From Sporomusa sp. KB1 (GTDB taxonomy: Bacteria; Bacillota; Negativicutes; Sporomusales; Sporomusaceae), in NCBI RefSeq assembly GCF_007830295.1, contig NZ_VLKC01000002.1, forward strand, positions 94,023 to 138,624: 44,602 bases of DNA, written 5' to 3'. The notes below the pieces were generated by a model. That model did no database searches. It saw only the letters and a list, made by a program, of their open reading frames with translations, and had not been told where the DNA came from. Shown piece after piece: positions 1 through 11,271 of the stretch (position 1 is its first letter; every line of letters starts with the position of its first letter). A program made the position numbers and the translations under genes.

Positions 1-1444
1 CGCAAGGAGCGCGACTCGTGTATCATTTATTGCCTCCGATAACTGATTGTTTCAATCCACGCGCCCGCAAGGAGCGCGACAAGATAAGGAAACTGAAATT
101 TGGCAGGATGAAGTTTCAATCCACGCGCCCGCAAGGAGCGCGACGCCGGAAGATTACTACGGTACTATGGAATATCGGTTTCAATCCACGCGCCCGCAAG
201 GAGCGCGACTTAGCTTCCGGTTTGCGGCTTCCGAGAATTAGTGTTTCAATCCACGCGCCCGCAAGGAGCGCGACTTCATCCCTCGGCCTACGACGACCAG
301 TAACACAGTTTCAATCCACGCGCCCGCAAGGAGCGCGACTTTTTCAATGTTGTTTCACCTACTTTCTTACAGGTTTCAATCCACGCGCCCGCAAGGAGCG
401 CGACAGCGCCGTAACATTTCGGACACTGCTTGAGTGGTTTCAATCCACGCGCCCGCAAGGAGCGCGACGCAACGGCAAGAGATGGGATAAGTCAGCTATT
501 AGTTTCAATCCACGCGCCCGCAAGGAGCGCGACGTTTTTGCGCATCGCACGCATTGATTGCTGAATGTTTCAATCCACGCGCCCGCAAGGAGCGCGACGG
601 ATTTAAAGTTTAACCCAAACGCGTTTTGGGAGTTTCAATCCACGCGCCCGCAAGGAGCGCGACTAAAAATAATGTCGATAAAATGCTAGTATTTGTGTTT
701 CAATCCACGCGCCCGCAAGGAGCGCGACTTGATTGTCGCCCTGAATGGTGTCCTAAGAAAAAGTTTCAATCCACGCGCCCGCAAGGAGCGCGACCTTCCG
801 GTCCTATCTTTCTTTCCAGCAGCTTTCTGTTTCAATCCACGCGCCCGCAAGGAGCGCGACGTCCAGCCGTTGCCGGTACACTTGTAACGTTGTGTTTCAA
901 TCCACGCGCCCGCAAGGAGCGCGACTCAGACAGTATTTTAATGTGGGGATCTAACCGAGTTTCAATCCACGCGCCCGCAAGGAGCGCGACATACTTAACG
1001 CTAATGGAATCTTTCGCCAAGGAGTTTCAATCCACGCGCCCGCAAGGAGCGCGACCTGACCTTGCTGGAGAATTTACGCCACTAAACATGTTTCAATCCA
1101 CGCGCCCGCAAGGAGCGCGACCCACGGCAACAAATGCAATGTCAGTGGCACAAGTTTCAATCCACGCGCCCGCAAGGAGCGCGACAAAATTCCGTTTGAA
1201 TGTTTCGGAGAGAAAGAAGTTTCAATCCACGCGCCCGCAAGGAGCGCGACGTTCTGGTGGTGGATCTACTGGCGGTAATAGTGTTTCAATCCACGCGCCC
1301 GCAAGGAGCGCGACATAAACCCATATTCTTTTTCACCTAGTATGTATGTTTCAATCCACGCGCCCGCAAGGAGCGCGACGTCCCGGCAGTGAGGTTGATG
1401 CTTCATATGTTGGTTTCAATCCACGCGCCCGCAAGGAGCGCGAC
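1..1444 (-). CRISPR. Type I-C CRISPR array, 22 full repeats
   Basis: Twenty-two identical 32-bp repeats start at 49, 113, 178, 243, 308, 373, 437, 502, 567, 632, 697, 763, 829, 894, 959, 1024, 1090, 1154, 1219, 1283, 1348 and 1413. A partial repeat fills 1-15, so the array continues to the left of the window. Spacers are 32-34 bp and all different. Read on the minus strand the repeat is GT, a 7-bp stem (CGCGCTC/GGGCGCG) around a CTTGC loop, then the 11-nt tag TGGATTGAAAC. This is the usual I-C form, in which Cas5 cuts behind the stem and leaves an 11-nt 5' handle. The cas operon, leader and repeat orientation all indicate transcription on the minus strand, so the newest spacer should be 1380-1412. 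I found no degenerate repeat at the leader end; the far end is outside the window. Confidence 0.98.
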
Positions 1445-1910: not shown

Positions 1911-2942
1911 TCACTTCCAGAAAAATGGCGGATAATCTTCTATATCACCCCGGATATGCCGGGCTAATAGTAAAGCCTGCACATAAGGCACAAGTCCCAG
2001 TGAAATTTTTTCTTCTAAATAAGGATGCGTAATTTCTTCCTGCTTTCTTTTTTGCCAGGCCGTCAACACCTCTTTGCGGGTGTCTTCCTCCATAATCACC
2101 GCGCCGTTTTCTTTCACGACAAAACCATCGGCTGAAATCTGTTTGCGGTTGATGAGTGTTACTGCCAGCCGGTCAGCAAAATGCGGCCGCAATTCTTCCA
2201 TAATATCTAGAGCCAAGCTAGGCCTGCCCGGACGCTCGCGATGCAAAAAGCCCACCTGCGGATCAAGACCAACGCTTTCTAAAGCTGCAGTTACATCATG
2301 AGCCAACAATGTATACAAAAACGACAATAAGGCGTTAATACGGTCTGTTGGTGGTCGACGGTTACGGTTGGACAGATGAAATTCTTCCTTTTGGCTTAGA
2401 ATCAGCTGATTGAAATTCGAAAAATAAACCTGTGCTGCCTCTCCCTCTACACCGCGTATCACATCACCGTTACCCGCCTTTTCCAGCCTGTCCACCGTTC
2501 CCGCCAGCCAACTAATCGCTTTGTCCAGCGCCAGATCATCGACGTTTTCTTTATGATCGCGCCGTAAGCGATGCAGCAGCGCCCTGCTGTTCATGATCTT
2601 GGCGGCAATGAATCGCCGGGCCAGCCGGGTGGAAACAGCCGGATCATCCGCCCAGCGGTATTGCGCCCGCCTGAGAAGCACATTTCCTGAAATACCGCCG
2701 GTTACGCGCCCCATAAATTTGCCATATTCGGTCAGAAATGACAAAGCCACACCCCGCTCAGAGCATAGATACATAAGTTTTGGACTGGCTCCCGCAAAGC
2801 CAAAGCAAATAATACTTTCCAGATTATGCACAGGAACGCGGAATTTTGTCTCATCCTTCACTCTAATCACTACATTCTCACCGTCACAAGCCAGGTAGGC
2901 ATCTGGCATAGTCACGTAAAGCGTATTCAAAAGCCGCCTCAT
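1911..2942 (-). CDS. cas1: CRISPR integrase Cas1 (I-C)
   Basis: This 343-residue protein is a full-length type I-C Cas1, the integrase that inserts prespacers at the leader-repeat junction. The metal ligands are visible: E166 in GVEGEAA, H234 in FLHRERPGR and D246 in LALDIMEELRP. The N-terminal beta domain and the helical catalytic domain are both complete. Its ATG overlaps the cas4 stop codon (TAATG), indicating translational coupling. Cas1, Cas2 and Cas4 together make a complete adaptation module, consistent with the long array of identical repeats. Confidence 0.98.
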   Translation of the reverse strand: MRRLLNTLYVTMPDAYLACDGENVVIRVKDETKFRVPVHNLESIICFGFAGASPKLMYLCSERGVALSFLTEYGKFMGRVTGGISGNVLLRRAQYRWADDPAVSTRLARRFIAAKIMNSRALLHRLRRDHKENVDDLALDKAISWLAGTVDRLEKAGNGDVIRGVEGEAAQVYFSNFNQLILSQKEEFHLSNRNRRPPTDRINALLSFLYTLLAHDVTAALESVGLDPQVGFLHRERPGRPSLALDIMEELRPHFADRLAVTLINRKQISADGFVVKENGAVIMEEDTRKEVLTAWQKRKQEEITHPYLEEKISLGLVPYVQALLLARHIRGDIEDYPPFFWK

Positions 2943-3634
2943 TATTCATCCGCCTCCAAACTGCACATTCGCGCCAAATATGCCGCCACCGGACGGTGGC
3001 GCAGCATCCAATAAGGCTGGCAATCATCCACCAGCGAACATTGGGCACATCGTTTCCCCTTTTTCGCCTTGGGTGTTATGCCATCTCTGACGAACTGGTG
3101 CATTTTCTGGGATAATTCCAGCGTATGCTGCCGTAAAGCCGGAGTAAATTCAACCGCCTCCCGCCGCTTTGTTTCACCATAGAAGAGACACCCTGAAGTT
3201 ATCGTTACACCGAGCATTTCTTCCAGCGCCACCGCCTGCGCACAAAGCTGTACTGCATCGCGGTCATCTTTCTTAGGTTTACCTCTCTTATATTCAACAG
3301 GCAACGGACACCACCAACCATCGCGGTCCTTCAACTGGCAGGTTTCACCATCAATCATAGTCTTACTATAGTGAAACTCCACCACATCGGCTACGCCGCG
3401 CAACGCAAGCTGCCTTGAAACGACCGGCATACTCCTCACAATCCGCACCGTCTTACGGCTTTCATCAAAGAATGGATCATCTGCCCGTTCATGCAAGTGT
3501 TTGCCTTCCACTGTCCGGACATTTTCAGCCCAGACTTGCTCTACATGAATCAGCGCCCACTGACGTTCACAAAAAGCCATATGCTGAATGCCAGACAATA
3601 ATAAGTACTCTTCCGCAGATACGTCAGGTATCAT
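2942..3634 (-). CDS. cas4: CRISPR-associated exonuclease Cas4 (I-C)
   Basis: The protein has 230 residues, typical of I-C Cas4, which selects PAM-bearing prespacers and trims their ends within the Cas1-Cas2-Cas4 complex. Visible landmarks are C22 (FCERQW), the EGKHLHERAD motif, the PD-(D/E)XK lysine context VEYKRG, and a C-terminal cysteine cluster (RCAQCSLVDDC) that with C22 supplies the iron-sulfur ligands. The start overlaps the end of cas7 in an ATGA, and the stop overlaps the cas1 start. Confidence 0.97.
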   Translation of the reverse strand: MIPDVSAEEYLLLSGIQHMAFCERQWALIHVEQVWAENVRTVEGKHLHERADDPFFDESRKTVRIVRSMPVVSRQLALRGVADVVEFHYSKTMIDGETCQLKDRDGWWCPLPVEYKRGKPKKDDRDAVQLCAQAVALEEMLGVTITSGCLFYGETKRREAVEFTPALRQHTLELSQKMHQFVRDGITPKAKKGKRCAQCSLVDDCQPYWMLRHRPVAAYLARMCSLEADE

Positions 3635-4495
3635 CGTTCTATAATAGCGATTTCTGCAGGTTTGTCTTGATGGTTGATTTCAATTTTGTAATCGCTAAAA
3701 GCCCGGGGCGGCTTTATCTCATCCTTACGTTTTACGGTTACCAGTTCGAACAGCCTGTGTGCCGGAGCATTGCCCAGGGACGTAGCATGTTCAAAAATGA
3801 TTAGCTTCCGGCTGGACATCCTGCCTCTCGCCGCCGAGTGGTCATGCTCAAACATATTCAACAATGCCTGCCAAAAAAGTTCCAGATCATCCCCGGAAAA
3901 GCCAGTCTTCTGCGCCAGCGGCGCTGAGATATAGCCCTCAGCACGATACAACGCATAGGGGATGATGTGCTTGCGCCCCATGGTGCGTTCCTTGTCGGCA
4001 TCCTTTTCATTAGTAACCGCCATGCGGGTAATCGTCACTTCCTGCGGTACGATTGAGTCAATACTTTTGGCAAACCCAAATTGCACCGGGCCGCGTACCT
4101 GACCGCAATTGACCTCTGTCGTCATAACCGCACCAAAAGCGCGAATATCATAAAAGCGATTGCACATATAAGAGGTAATCAATTTGGCTTGATCTGCATC
4201 TTTAGGCAGCTTCTTAGTTTCCGATTTAAGTCCCTGCGCTTTATAGGCCTCTTCATTTACCAAATTGAGTACAGCATTTTCCCGAACATAAATATCAAAC
4301 CGTTCTTTATCATCGGCCACTAAATCAATATAATTGCGGACTTTGCGCTTAAGGCATACATCGGTAACCAGTCCCTGACTGGTCTCAGGATCAATACGCG
4401 GCATATTGCCAGCATCAGGATCACCATTAGGGTTGCCGTTCTCCACCTCAAAAAAGAGGACAAATTCATACCGTTTATCTATGGGATTGCTCATT

Positions 4496-4503
<8 letters not shown>
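3631..4503 (-). CDS. cas7: Cascade backbone protein Cas7 (Csd2, I-C)
   Basis: This 290-residue protein is the Csd2 form of Cas7, which polymerises along crRNA to build the I-C Cascade backbone. The N-terminal family signature is unmistakable: ENGNPNGDPDAGNMPR, then GLVTDVCLKRKVRNY. The C-terminal part has the expected glycine-rich and aromatic pattern. The ATG at 4503 lies inside the end of cas8c (8-bp overlap). A second ATG at 4494, just after the cas8c stop, also has a purine-rich sequence ahead of it, so the first three residues are uncertain. Confidence 0.97.
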
Positions 4504-9231
<4,728 letters not shown>

Positions 9232-9232
<1 letters not shown>

Positions 9233-9792
9233 TAATAATCACCACCAAACAGATCAAGACTCTCCTGCGCCGGCCGGTTAATAACATGATTAATTTCCAC
9301 ATGCTGTTGTCCGGCCCTCAGTATGATCTCTGCGCAGGCTTTCGCGTCACTGCCCGCATCATGATGAGTCAACGCCACATTAAGGTGAGCAGCAACCGTT
9401 GACAACTTGTGATTCCTGAGCTTAGGCCAAGCGCTTCGCGCTACCGCCAACGAATCAATAACAAAAAACTCAGGCATAAACAGACCATAGTGAGCCAGCG
9501 TTGCCGCCAGCACACCGATATCAAAATCAGCATTATGGGCAGCGACAATCTGATGTTCAAAAAACGGCCTGATCTCCGGCCAAAGGCCAACAAATGTCGG
9601 TTGGTTTCTCACCATTGAATATGTAATGCCATGCAAATAGGAAAAAGTGAATACTTTGGTTGGCGGCCTAATCAGCCAGGACTTTTCCATCACAATCCTG
9701 CCCTTCGCCACTACGGCTACGCCCAGCTGACAAGCGCTATGGCTTTGCAAATTGGCTGTCTCAAAATCAAACGCAATAAAGTTTTTCCTCAC
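9232..9792 (-). CDS. DEDDh (DnaQ-like) 3'-5' exonuclease, first gene of the cas operon
   Basis: This 186-residue protein is a DnaQ/exonuclease-III-fold DEDDh nuclease. Visible motifs are D9 and E11 in IAFDFETA (ExoI), the HNADFD ExoII motif near residue 86, and HHDAGSDAKA near 144 (ExoIII, His and Asp). It starts with GTG after GGGAGAGG and ends inside the cas3 start (TAATG). DEDDh exonucleases trim prespacer 3' ends in some type I-E systems, free or fused to Cas2. Its position as first gene of this I-C operon suggests a similar accessory role in adaptation, but that is inference; a general DNA-repair role is also possible. No other domain is visible. Confidence 0.88.
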
Positions 9793-9899: not shown

Positions 9900-9928
9900 A
9901 TTATCATACATGTAATTGAAGATGTAAA
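9900..9928 (-). promoter_or_regulatory. Sigma-70 promoter of the cas operon
   Basis: On the minus strand TTTACA (9923-9928) is followed after exactly 17 bp by GATAAT (9900-9905), 5 of 6 matches to each consensus hexamer. It lies about 110 bp before the exonuclease start with no gene between. A second, weaker element, TTGCAA (9957-9962), 17 bp, TAGTAT (9934-9939), lies just upstream and is part of a duplicated cassette. Confidence 0.7.
9904..9920 (-). promoter_or_regulatory. Predicted Cascade target site in the cas promoter (TTC PAM plus seed)
   Basis: On the minus strand a TTC PAM (9918-9920) is followed from 9917 by AATTACATGTATGA. The guide of the orphan repeat RNA begins AATTAGATGTAGGA. 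Twelve of fourteen positions match and the two mismatches fall at positions 6 and 12, the flipped-out bases of type I crRNA-DNA hybrids. The site fills the spacer between the -35 and -10 hexamers and reaches into the -10. Pairing stops after position 14, the pattern expected for binding without cleavage. Confidence 0.65.
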
Positions 9929-9999
9929 TTCAAATACTAGCATATCCGAGTCGCTCTTGCAATCATAAACTTCCAAGAGACAACTCGGAATAATCTAGC
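9914..9999 (-). repeat. Promoter-like cassette, copy A (ahead of cas operon)
   Basis: This segment is an imperfect direct repeat of 10672-10759. Shared blocks on the minus strand include TCCGAGTT/TCTGAGTT, TTTATGATTGCA, ATATGCTA and CTTCAATTA. Both copies keep a TTGCAW-17 bp-TARTAT promoter-like pair and end in TTC followed by AATTA, where the orphan guide can pair. Copy A precedes the cas operon and copy B the PIN toxin gene. Confidence 0.6.
9946..9988 (-). other. Hairpin downstream of the orphan guide
   Basis: Arms 9946-9959 (CCGAGTCGCTCTTG) and 9974-9988 pair over 14 bp, with one bulged base and wobble pairs, around a 14-nt loop. In the minus direction no T-run follows, so it is not a canonical terminator. 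It could be the 3' stabilising element of the crRNA-like RNA or stand in for its second repeat. Confidence 0.5.
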
Positions 10000-10051
10000 A
10001 TTCCTACATCTAATTGTTTCAATCCACGCGCTATCCCATTAGCACGACACT
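9946..10051 (-). ncRNA. CreR-like crRNA-like RNA gene (orphan degenerate repeat plus guide)
   Basis: An isolated 33-bp CRISPR repeat variant lies at 10016-10048, in the array's orientation. It keeps GT and the full 11-nt handle TGGATTGAAAC. Its stem is CGTGCTA/TAGCGCG around a 6-nt loop: relative to the array one base pair has been swapped (C-G to A-T), one T-G has become T-A and one C-G has become a T-G wobble, so 7-bp pairing is fully kept while loop sequence is lost. The repeat starts 10 nt after a strong -10 box. The guide begins at 10015. A 14-bp hairpin with one bulge at 9946-9988 follows and may form the 3' end; it lacks a U-tract. Cas-regulating RNAs (CreR) and CreA antitoxins have this design. 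The 3' boundary is a guess. Confidence 0.7.
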
Positions 10052-10058
10052 GTAAATT

Positions 10059-10087
10059 AGTATATTGTAAAACATTTTTTTAGTCAA
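10059..10087 (-). promoter_or_regulatory. Sigma-70 promoter of the orphan repeat RNA
   Basis: On the minus strand TTGACT (10082-10087) is followed after exactly 17 bp by TATACT (10059-10064), 5 of 6 matches to each consensus. A start 7-8 nt after the -10 would place the first base 2-3 nt ahead of the orphan repeat, so the transcript would begin almost exactly with the repeat. This is the best sigma-70 promoter seen in the window. Confidence 0.78.
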
Positions 10088-10168: not shown

Positions 10169-10603
10169 TCACAGTTGCTTTCGTTTAACTCCACGGAACT
10201 TATCAAAATGATTATCAAAAGAGTACACTGGTTGATCGGCGGCCTTTGCTTTTGCAGCAACAATAGCATCAGCCCAGTCAACACCCTTGATTTCATAAAA
10301 CTCTAACGCTTGCGCAAGTGTTGCTGTTTCAGTCTCTGTTTCAATTCCCGGTAACCGTATTAAGGCAATTAAAGCTTTGGCAATGTCTGCACGGTTATGT
10401 TTATAATAACTTTGCAACACAAATACGGTTTCGATAAAAACCGTATCACACAAAACTAAACTTTCTTCGCCTTCAGTGGCCCGTTTAAACAAATCACGTG
10501 CTTTACCGGCATGATCTCCGCCATCGCCAACTAAAAATCTTATTATGATATTTGTATCAATCCTACTCTTCAACATCGTATCCAAATCTTGTGGCTCGTT
10601 CAT
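10169..10603 (-). CDS. PIN-domain ribonuclease toxin (VapC-like)
   Basis: The protein has 144 residues from the ATG at 10603, or 135 from the in-frame ATG at 10576. PIN-fold acidic residues are visible: D in SRIDTNIIIRFL, E in FIETVFVL, D in GVDWADAIVA and D in SFDNHFDKF. Such proteins are Mg-dependent RNases that act as toxins with an AbrB, RHH or Phd antitoxin. The ATG at 10576 overlaps the stop of an antitoxin remnant, the classical coupled arrangement; the ATG at 10603 has GGGGG ahead of it and is probably used now that the antitoxin copy is broken. The toxin appears intact, so the separate upstream abrB gene may supply its antitoxin. Confidence 0.85.
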   Translation of the reverse strand: MNEPQDLDTMLKSRIDTNIIIRFLVGDGGDHAGKARDLFKRATEGEESLVLCDTVFIETVFVLQSYYKHNRADIAKALIALIRLPGIETETETATLAQALEFYEIKGVDWADAIVAAKAKAADQPVYSFDNHFDKFRGVKRKQL

Positions 10604-10626: not shown

Positions 10627-10659
10627 GATTCTCCTATTTTTAGAATTCAATTTTTACTT

Positions 10660-10678
10660 ATTCCTACTTTTAATTGAA
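10660..10678 (-). promoter_or_regulatory. Second predicted Cascade target, ahead of the PIN toxin
   Basis: On the minus strand TTC (10676-10678) precedes AATTAAAAGTAGGAAT, starting at 10675. This matches the first 16 nt of the orphan guide (AATTAGATGTAGGAAT) at 14 positions, with mismatches at 6 and 8. It sits about 6 nt after the expected start of the weak copy-B promoter and about 60 nt before the toxin ATG. Shared ancestry of the flanking repeat may account for part of the match. Confidence 0.5.
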
Positions 10679-10759
10679 GTTCATAAATTTATATTAGCAT
10701 ATTCAACCTGTTCATGCAATCATAAATTTCCAGGAGATAACTCAGAATCGGCATAATAT
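10672..10759 (-). repeat. Promoter-like cassette, copy B (ahead of PIN toxin)
   Basis: Second copy of the cassette at 9914-9999. It includes TTGCAT (10714-10719), 17 bp, TAATAT (10691-10696) on the minus strand, a weak but conserved promoter-like pair. It overlaps the tail of a broken PIN reading frame. Confidence 0.55.
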
Positions 10760-10809
10760 GTGACTAAAACCGCAATTATACTATTTGTATTACGCCTACT
10801 CTTCAACAT
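10720..10809 (-). pseudogene. Remnant of a first PIN toxin gene (5' end)
   Basis: The ATG at 10809 overlaps the end of the intact abrB gene and begins MLKSRRNTNSIIAVLV, matching MLKSRIDTNIIIRFLV of the intact toxin. The frame then departs and stops at 10720-10722 after 29 residues. The catalytic aspartate is already replaced by asparagine. With the abrB remnant this shows that a tandem antitoxin-toxin duplication has been pared down to one antitoxin and one toxin. Confidence 0.75.
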
Positions 10810-11101
10810 CATATCCAAGTCTTGCAGCACTCTCATTTGACATAGCTCCTCTAAGCTCTTTGATGTTCGCGGGCTTCATCGGAGCCACCGGTTTTAGTAT
10901 CCCAAATAGATCATTGATTGTCGGTTCAGGTTCGATGACGATTATACCGTCAGGTTTAACAAAAATATTAATGCGTTGGGAGCCCCCTGCCATAATGCCC
11001 AGGCGCTCACGGACTGCTTTTGGCAAAGTAACCTGCCCTTGGCTGCTCACAGGAATGCGCCGAAATTCAACTAACCGACTAGTATGTTTTACCGTATTCA
11101 T
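10796..11101 (-). CDS. AbrB/SpoVT-family antitoxin
   Basis: The protein has 101 residues from the ATG at 11101, chosen because GGAGGTG lies 7 nt ahead; the frame stays open to 11125. The swapped-hairpin AbrB DNA-binding domain is clear at about residues 14-55: RRIPVSSQGQVTLPKAVRERLG, then a beta strand IIVIEPE. The C-terminal tail would wrap the partner toxin. These antitoxins also autorepress their operon. The gene is complete but separated from the intact PIN gene by remnants of a duplicated module. Confidence 0.88.
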   Translation of the reverse strand: MNTVKHTSRLVEFRRIPVSSQGQVTLPKAVRERLGIMAGGSQRINIFVKPDGIIVIEPEPTINDLFGILKPVAPMKPANIKELRGAMSNESAARLGYDVEE

Positions 11102-11271
11102 AATATTACACCTCCGAATACACACTTGATCTTTAAAAATTAAATTTTATTTACTTGTTTATTCTATACAATATTTTAAATATCAATGCATGTTTTAAAT
11201 AAAAATGTGTTTATCTTTATTTTATAATAAAAATAAACACTCGTAAACAATATATTATATATCTTTGCATC

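Follow-up and report, generated by a model that had tools for sequence, protein, structure and literature searches.

The window analyzed here is a 44,602-nucleotide stretch of DNA from Sporomusa sp. KB1, located on the larger of the two contigs of a 6.06-Mb genome. It carries a type I-C CRISPR-Cas locus with the following features (coordinates are those of the window):

1..1440, minus strand: part of a CRISPR array, with 22 exact repeats in the window and extending past the window edge
Between cas1 and the array, minus strand: cas2-like open reading frame (ORF), read from the sequence alone
1911..9232, minus strand: type I-C cas3, cas5c, cas8c, cas7, cas4, and cas1
9232..9792, minus strand: gene for a DnaQ-like 3'-5' exonuclease (PF00929), first gene of the operon
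9900..9928, minus strand: predicted promoter of the exonuclease-cas operon, sigma-70 type, TTTACA-17-GATAAT (consensus scan, 10/12 matches)

The exonuclease gene and cas3 abut at base 9232. An exonuclease gene next to cas3 was missing in nearly all other type I-C loci collected; it was found before cas3 in L126 and, weakly, in L027. Array spacers within the window measure 32 to 34 bases. The repeat core GCGTGGATTGAAAC has 77 copies genome-wide: the array holds 75, the orphan repeat one (10016-10029), and the second contig one.

Nucleotide relatives of 10800-9780 were sought in 60 genomes, of which 6 matched, including the window genome itself. Matches in G003, G006, and G007 covered the exonuclease leader or the abrB-pin genes (described below), that in G004 covered pin only (at a contig end), and G043 gave a class-level match. 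The exonuclease leader (9884-9794) is conserved in G006 and G003, both of the same genus and both without the guide RNA. It contains a six-codon frame (TTG-CGA-GAA-AGT-AGA-CAA-stop) after AGGAAAG, and a similar frame was seen by eye in G006.

Orphan repeat and its predicted RNA

Between the exonuclease gene and pin lie the following elements:

10059..10087, minus strand: predicted orphan-RNA promoter, TTGACT-17-TATACT (consensus scan, 10/12 matches)
10016..10048, minus strand: psiR1, a degenerate type I-C repeat outside the array, beside cas genes of its own type
9982..10015, minus strand: psiS, a 34-base guide (AATTAGATGTAGGAATGCTAGATTATTCCGAGTT) with the length of an array spacer
9946..9981, minus strand: possible psiR2, a very degenerate segment starting with GTC and forming the 3' hairpin of the RNA (placed by position and fold only)
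9904..9920, minus strand: target, consisting of the protospacer-adjacent motif (PAM) TTC (9920-9918) and a 14-base seed match (9917-9904)

The predicted orphan-RNA promoter ends 10 bases upstream of psiR1. In psiR1, the 16 bases at the 3' end of the array repeat (GCGCGTGGATTGAAAC) are retained, as is the pairing of a stem whose sequence has changed (GTGCTA/TAGCGC). On the minus strand, GTGGATTGAAAC directly precedes the start of the guide. The psiR2 candidate is a GTC-hairpin following after 34 bases, otherwise unlike the repeat and barely recognizable. The 106-nt RNA was predicted to fold at −37.2 kcal/mol, versus a shuffle mean of −23.1 (z, −5.5; 0/200 shuffles as stable). An inverted-repeat scan of the leader returned no pair at the settings used, although the fold shows a long hairpin. 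We read the orphan RNA as psiR1-psiS-psiR2, tentatively as regards the weak psiR2; this is the layout given for creA (PMC9458426).

Two other origins were considered and set aside. Handle and guide together had 0 exact matches in viral contigs, which makes a phage-borne RNA less likely. The guide (10014-10005) has the 10-mer ATTAGATGTA in common with the I-B-like array repeat of same-genus G003; the G003 repeat core is absent from the window genome (one 1-mismatch match), and the shared 10-mer was left as a coincidence. G003 itself carries an orphan degenerate I-B-like repeat (L121:3405-3441) about 1.3 kb from its array, near an ORF that reads as ParA/CooC-like.

A solitary I-C-like repeat with a pairing stem was also seen on the second contig of the window genome (locus L120, C2:338000-342500; core on the minus strand at C2:340090-340103). 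It lies just downstream of what reads as an htrA-like gene and is followed by a T-rich, terminator-like stretch. Searched genome-wide after TTC, its guide had no perfect seed match and two matches with 1 mismatch (control, 0).

Guide match at the predicted cas promoter and in related loci

The guide AATTAGATGTAGGA starts at 10015 on the minus strand, and its target site AATTACATGTATGA starts at 9917, directly after TTC, as the original prediction had claimed. Also borne out was its count of 12/14 matching bases, with mismatches at positions 6 and 12 only; beyond base 14, the match is at background. The site had been placed between the −35 and −10 boxes, and the seed does lie within the spacer of the predicted promoter (promoter coordinates, 9928-9900), overlapping the first bases of the −10 box. 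Guide and target are 98 bases apart, with a further 93 bases from the target to the exonuclease gene, which is the next recognized gene. The pairing stretch of 14 bases is shorter than in many other I-C pairs. Promoter-like sites in the region numbered 6, versus 4.3 (standard deviation, 2.1) in shuffles; because this count is not above that of the shuffles, both the cas and the orphan-RNA promoters remain predictions.

A chance match was rejected by a window scan, simulations, and genome-wide uniqueness. When the 1594 window positions that follow TTC on either strand were scanned, only the target matched all 12 other seed bases. When the 228-bp region was simulated 100,000 times with a Markov model, an equal match arose 18 times if any flank was allowed and once if TTC was required. 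Genome-wide, the pattern TTCAATTANATGTANGA had one perfect match (the target) and one match with 1 mismatch; a reversed control pattern had one match at up to 1 mismatch.

Type I-C loci were gathered with Cas7 in named genomes (best 80 of 93) and with Cas8c across the class, where 59 of 380 genomes matched, window genome included; regions were taken from 40 of the 59, a few of these regions being very short. The resulting 121 loci were reduced to 117 by dropping L125, L128, L129, and L130 (taken as duplicates of L010, L014, L012, and L011), and the 98 of these with cas3 and cas5 placed were tested. A locus was counted as positive if a repeat-like handle was followed by a guide that, with every sixth base ignored, matched 9 or more contiguous bases after a TTC in the same region.

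The original prediction had named guide-promoter covariation in relatives as its refutable consequence, and this was borne out: 29 of the 98 tested loci, window included, were positive (22/98 in the cas3-cas5 gap and 7/89 upstream of cas3), while random guide starts passed in 6/10993 cases. L023 had a strong match outside the tested regions and was excluded from the 29. By this criterion, the remaining 69/98 loci were without such an element, among them same-genus L010 (G008, Sporomusa silvacetica); the upstream region of same-genus G006 also had none. Guides vary among loci, one being common to L035 and L038, and they matched their own locus in 36/54 cases versus other loci in 23/1056 (at the level of at least 9 of 11 bases). 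By a simple pairing count, psiR1-like stems had a mean of 4.7 pairs versus 3.1 in shuffles, with at least 5 pairs in 14/29 (48%) versus 19%; some of the best stems found by this count are probably not the true ones. The layout of the window, with the element on the operon strand and the target 65 to 98 bases downstream, is also that of L012 (Pelosinus propionicus) and L163.

Every sixth base of type I crRNA-DNA hybrids is unpaired. To examine single positions, 36 pairs were picked that matched at 9 or more of the 11 bases next to TTC, wherever the mismatches fell. Position by position, the matches numbered 35, 35, 35, 36, 35, 9, 35, 36, and 35 (positions 1 to 9) and 36, 34, 7, 27, 31, 28, 27, 18, and 8 (positions 10 to 18). 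Positions 1 to 5 and 7 to 11 thus match in 34 to 36 of the 36 pairs, and positions 6, 12, and 18 in 9, 7, and 8. With similar guides merged (29 pairs), the latter matched in 8, 6, and 7 and the former in 27 to 29. By these counts, positions 6 and 12 look unselected, in keeping with the original statement that they go unread in type I hybrids.

The choice of phase was compared on 54 handles (those without a neighbor at 55 to 80 bases and with a guide of at least 30 bases). At a threshold of 10, skipping every sixth base gave matches for 28/54, skipping in other phases gave 0 or 1, and matching without a skip gave 7, a number that held at thresholds 8 to 11. At thresholds 8 and 9, other phases gave 7 or 8, versus 30 for the sixth-base skip. 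With any flank allowed, matches of at least 10 were flanked by TTC (28), TTT (3), and ACC (1). This pattern is what would be expected from Cascade reading the guide in a type I R-loop, and pairing that fades after about 16 to 17 bases would fit binding without Cas3 cutting. TTC is the motif named for the Xanthomonas I-C system in PMC8406640.

In 22/29 loci, the operon strand carried a promoter-like site that the target overlapped, versus 0.30 by random placement. With the exonuclease, cas3, and cas5 sought, the next recognized gene lay within 214 bases of the target in 25/29 loci, and in 25/29 it was a cas gene or the exonuclease of the window; in 4/29, another, non-cas ORF intervenes after the target. 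Since the next recognized gene is mostly a cas gene or the exonuclease and these four loci have another ORF, I-C elements seem to comprise cargo-directed cases alongside cases like CreR, in which a crRNA-like RNA targets Cascade or Cas12a to the promoter of its own cas genes (PMC12737573).

Guides in L034 (5312-6203) and L043 (6702-7590), between cas3 and cas5, face the promoter region of a DUF3990 gene, beside which stands a second ORF without a Pfam match; these two loci possibly hold CRISPR-guarded cargo. Between target and cas3, the Pelosinus-type loci carry small ORFs: L012 (4894-5079) has a 61-codon ORF with no Pfam match, and L163 (565-843) has a 92-codon ORF that, as read, resembles the helix-turn-helix part of a transposase.

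Second near-match beside a toxin gene

Upstream of the orphan-RNA promoter, the window carries a putative toxin-antitoxin pair and a second site resembling the target:

10796..11125, minus strand: abrB, gene for an AbrB/MazE-type antitoxin (PF04014, TIGR01439)
10634..10748, minus strand: diverged copy of 9991-9871 (3' half of the guide, hairpin region, and cas promoter), between abrB and pin
10660..10678, minus strand: second near-match of the guide, TTC followed by AATTAAAAGTAGGAAT (14/16, mismatches at positions 6 and 8)
10169..10603, minus strand: pin, gene for a PIN-domain (VapC-like) toxin (PF01850; E value, 1.7e-16)

The pin product has a weak VapC NCBIfam match, below the cut-off, and what we take to be the acidic residues of PIN domains appear in place. 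The near-match at 10675, absent from the original prediction, is the only 1-mismatch match genome-wide. Among 29 guides scanned, this one alone has a second site in its own locus, the window being the longest locus scanned. Aligned locally with 9991-9871, the copy scored 98, versus a maximum of 54 in 300 shuffles, and because the match sits in this copy of the cas promoter segment, descent explains it. The promoter scan predicted none on the minus strand within the copy (10748-10634), and the hairpin of the original segment was not retained, as read from the alignment.

The abrB-pin pair occurs without the copy in the sister genome G007 (genes 27 bases apart) and G003 (genes overlapping), neither of which had a cas8c match. 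A doubled abrB tail/pin start is present in both the window genome and G007. Downstream of pin, G007 also carries a relic I-C repeat (L123, C3:86000-96000, minus strand) beside transposase-like remnants, differing by eye from the array repeat of the window at 3/32 bases; this repeat probably marks the place of an I-C locus that was lost. Given the relic repeat and the doubled abrB tail/pin start, G007 may have lost both its cas genes and the copy.

Proposed repression and comparison with known systems

The window holds a repeat-like element whose PAM-flanked match is unique in the genome, and the same design is present in other I-C loci. The orphan RNA very probably guides I-C Cascade to the predicted promoter of the exonuclease-cas operon, which would be blocked without Cas3 cutting; self-repression is likely because the guide matches the predicted promoter of this operon and 28 related loci have guides matching their own locus. 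The orphan repeat and its 34-base spacer would be transcribed and processed into a crRNA-like RNA (CreR), and this RNA would bring the I-C Cascade to the 14-base match that follows TTC. Bound Cascade would block transcription of the operon, Cas3 cutting would be avoided as pairing stops after the seed, and repression would lift when crRNAs or anti-CRISPRs draw Cascade away. The autorepression that the original prediction had proposed is supported as a reading of this locus.

This explanation could be extended by one guide serving two promoters, Cascade also holding down the PIN toxin through 10675 (CreR plus a CrePA-like guard), an addition that we consider rather unlikely. It draws on the 14/16 match after TTC, on this being the lone 1-mismatch match of the genome and the lone second own-locus site among 29 guides, on the DUF3990 cargo promoters faced in L034 and L043, and on the abrB-pin pairs that lack the copy in G007 and G003, both without a cas8c match. 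Descent by copying, however, accounts for the match; the seed has a mismatch at position 8, the copy has no predicted minus-strand promoter and has not kept the hairpin, and the case comes from one genome and from the longest locus scanned. One RNA would then act as thermostat of the I-C operon and as leash on the PIN toxin, the antitoxin operon having been split by a copied, Cascade-repressed cas promoter, a picture that we regard as doubtful. If true, loss of Cascade to an anti-CRISPR or a mutation would make cas genes and toxin rise together, rendering the operon both self-repairing and addictive.

That the exonuclease is a guarded harmful cargo, as in CrePA, and cas repression a by-product of the shared operon appears improbable. 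The exonuclease gene does come first after the target (93 bases), and is missing beside cas3 in nearly all other loci, and in 4/29 loci a non-cas ORF follows the target; yet the next recognized gene is a cas gene or this exonuclease in 25/29 loci, and exonuclease and cas3, meeting at base 9232, would be silenced together. It is very improbable that the element is a functionless remnant of an array that held a self-derived spacer. The repeat is degenerate, psiR2 is nearly lost, and neither of the same-genus I-C loci L010 and G006 showed such an element; yet seed, PAM, and stem have all been retained, and 28 other loci show this signature with guides of their own. That guide and target lie just 98 bases apart might suggest local duplication, or antisense pairing that does not involve Cascade, but this is barely credible. 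Similarity begins exactly after the handle and exactly after TTC, and matches across loci skip every sixth base, which is unexpected from duplication or plain antisense pairing and disfavors both.

Under the preferred reading, autorepression of the operon by guide-directed Cascade, such control of cas genes would now include type I-C, where dozens of natural pairs of guide and target exemplify it. By sequence alone, about 11 to 17 bases are kept at the sites with every sixth free to drift. Such RNAs can be sought directly by this rule, and the pairs predict that repression in I-C proceeds without cutting. Through the second site, a tie between Cas supply and a toxin by way of one RNA becomes testable. 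A search of the literature by title or abstract opening found no I-C CreR, which is not proof of absence. For many type I systems, Shmakov et al. (2023) reportedly described mini-arrays and standalone repeats whose guides partly match the promoters of cas or toxin-antitoxin genes.

Racrs (PMC10651486) are likewise solitary repeat units outside arrays, also known for I-C (RacrIC1); they are virus-encoded inhibitors, whereas the element in the window is chromosomal, stands beside its own cas operon, and has a promoter-matching guide. CreTA (PMC9458426, PMC12737573) shares the psiR-psiS layout and a short promoter match flanked by a TTC PAM but represses a small toxic RNA, whereas the next recognized gene after the target in the window is the exonuclease of the exonuclease-cas operon. 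CrePA, in which a KilA-N toxin is repressed in the same way as CreR targets (PMC12737573), resembles the window in having a protein-toxin gene behind a site like the target of the guide. In the window, that gene encodes a PIN-domain protein with its own AbrB-type antitoxin instead of a KilA-N-type toxin, the cas operon is faced by this guide as well, and repression is putative.

The closest likeness is to CreR (PMC12737573, PMC13131331), with a repeat-like element outside the array beside the cas operon, short complementarity to the cas promoter, and predicted autorepression, which for CreR is relieved by competing crRNAs and anti-CRISPRs (PMC12737573). The degenerate repeat beside cas genes of its own type has a 16-base identical 3' end and a changed stem, and the guide is partly complementary (12/14 after TTC, the PAM of the system) to the predicted cas promoter. 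In CreRs, one spacer stands between two repeat-like units (mini-CRISPR), although a single unit also occurs; the candidate second unit in the window is the GTC-hairpin. CreRs have been named for I-B, I-E, and V-A (PMC13131331), whereas the system in the window is type I-C, is known here from sequence alone, and has a guide that nearly matches another site, ahead of a toxin gene. Backed by covariation, the finding is well supported as a type I-C addition to the known CreR RNAs, with predicted autorepression.
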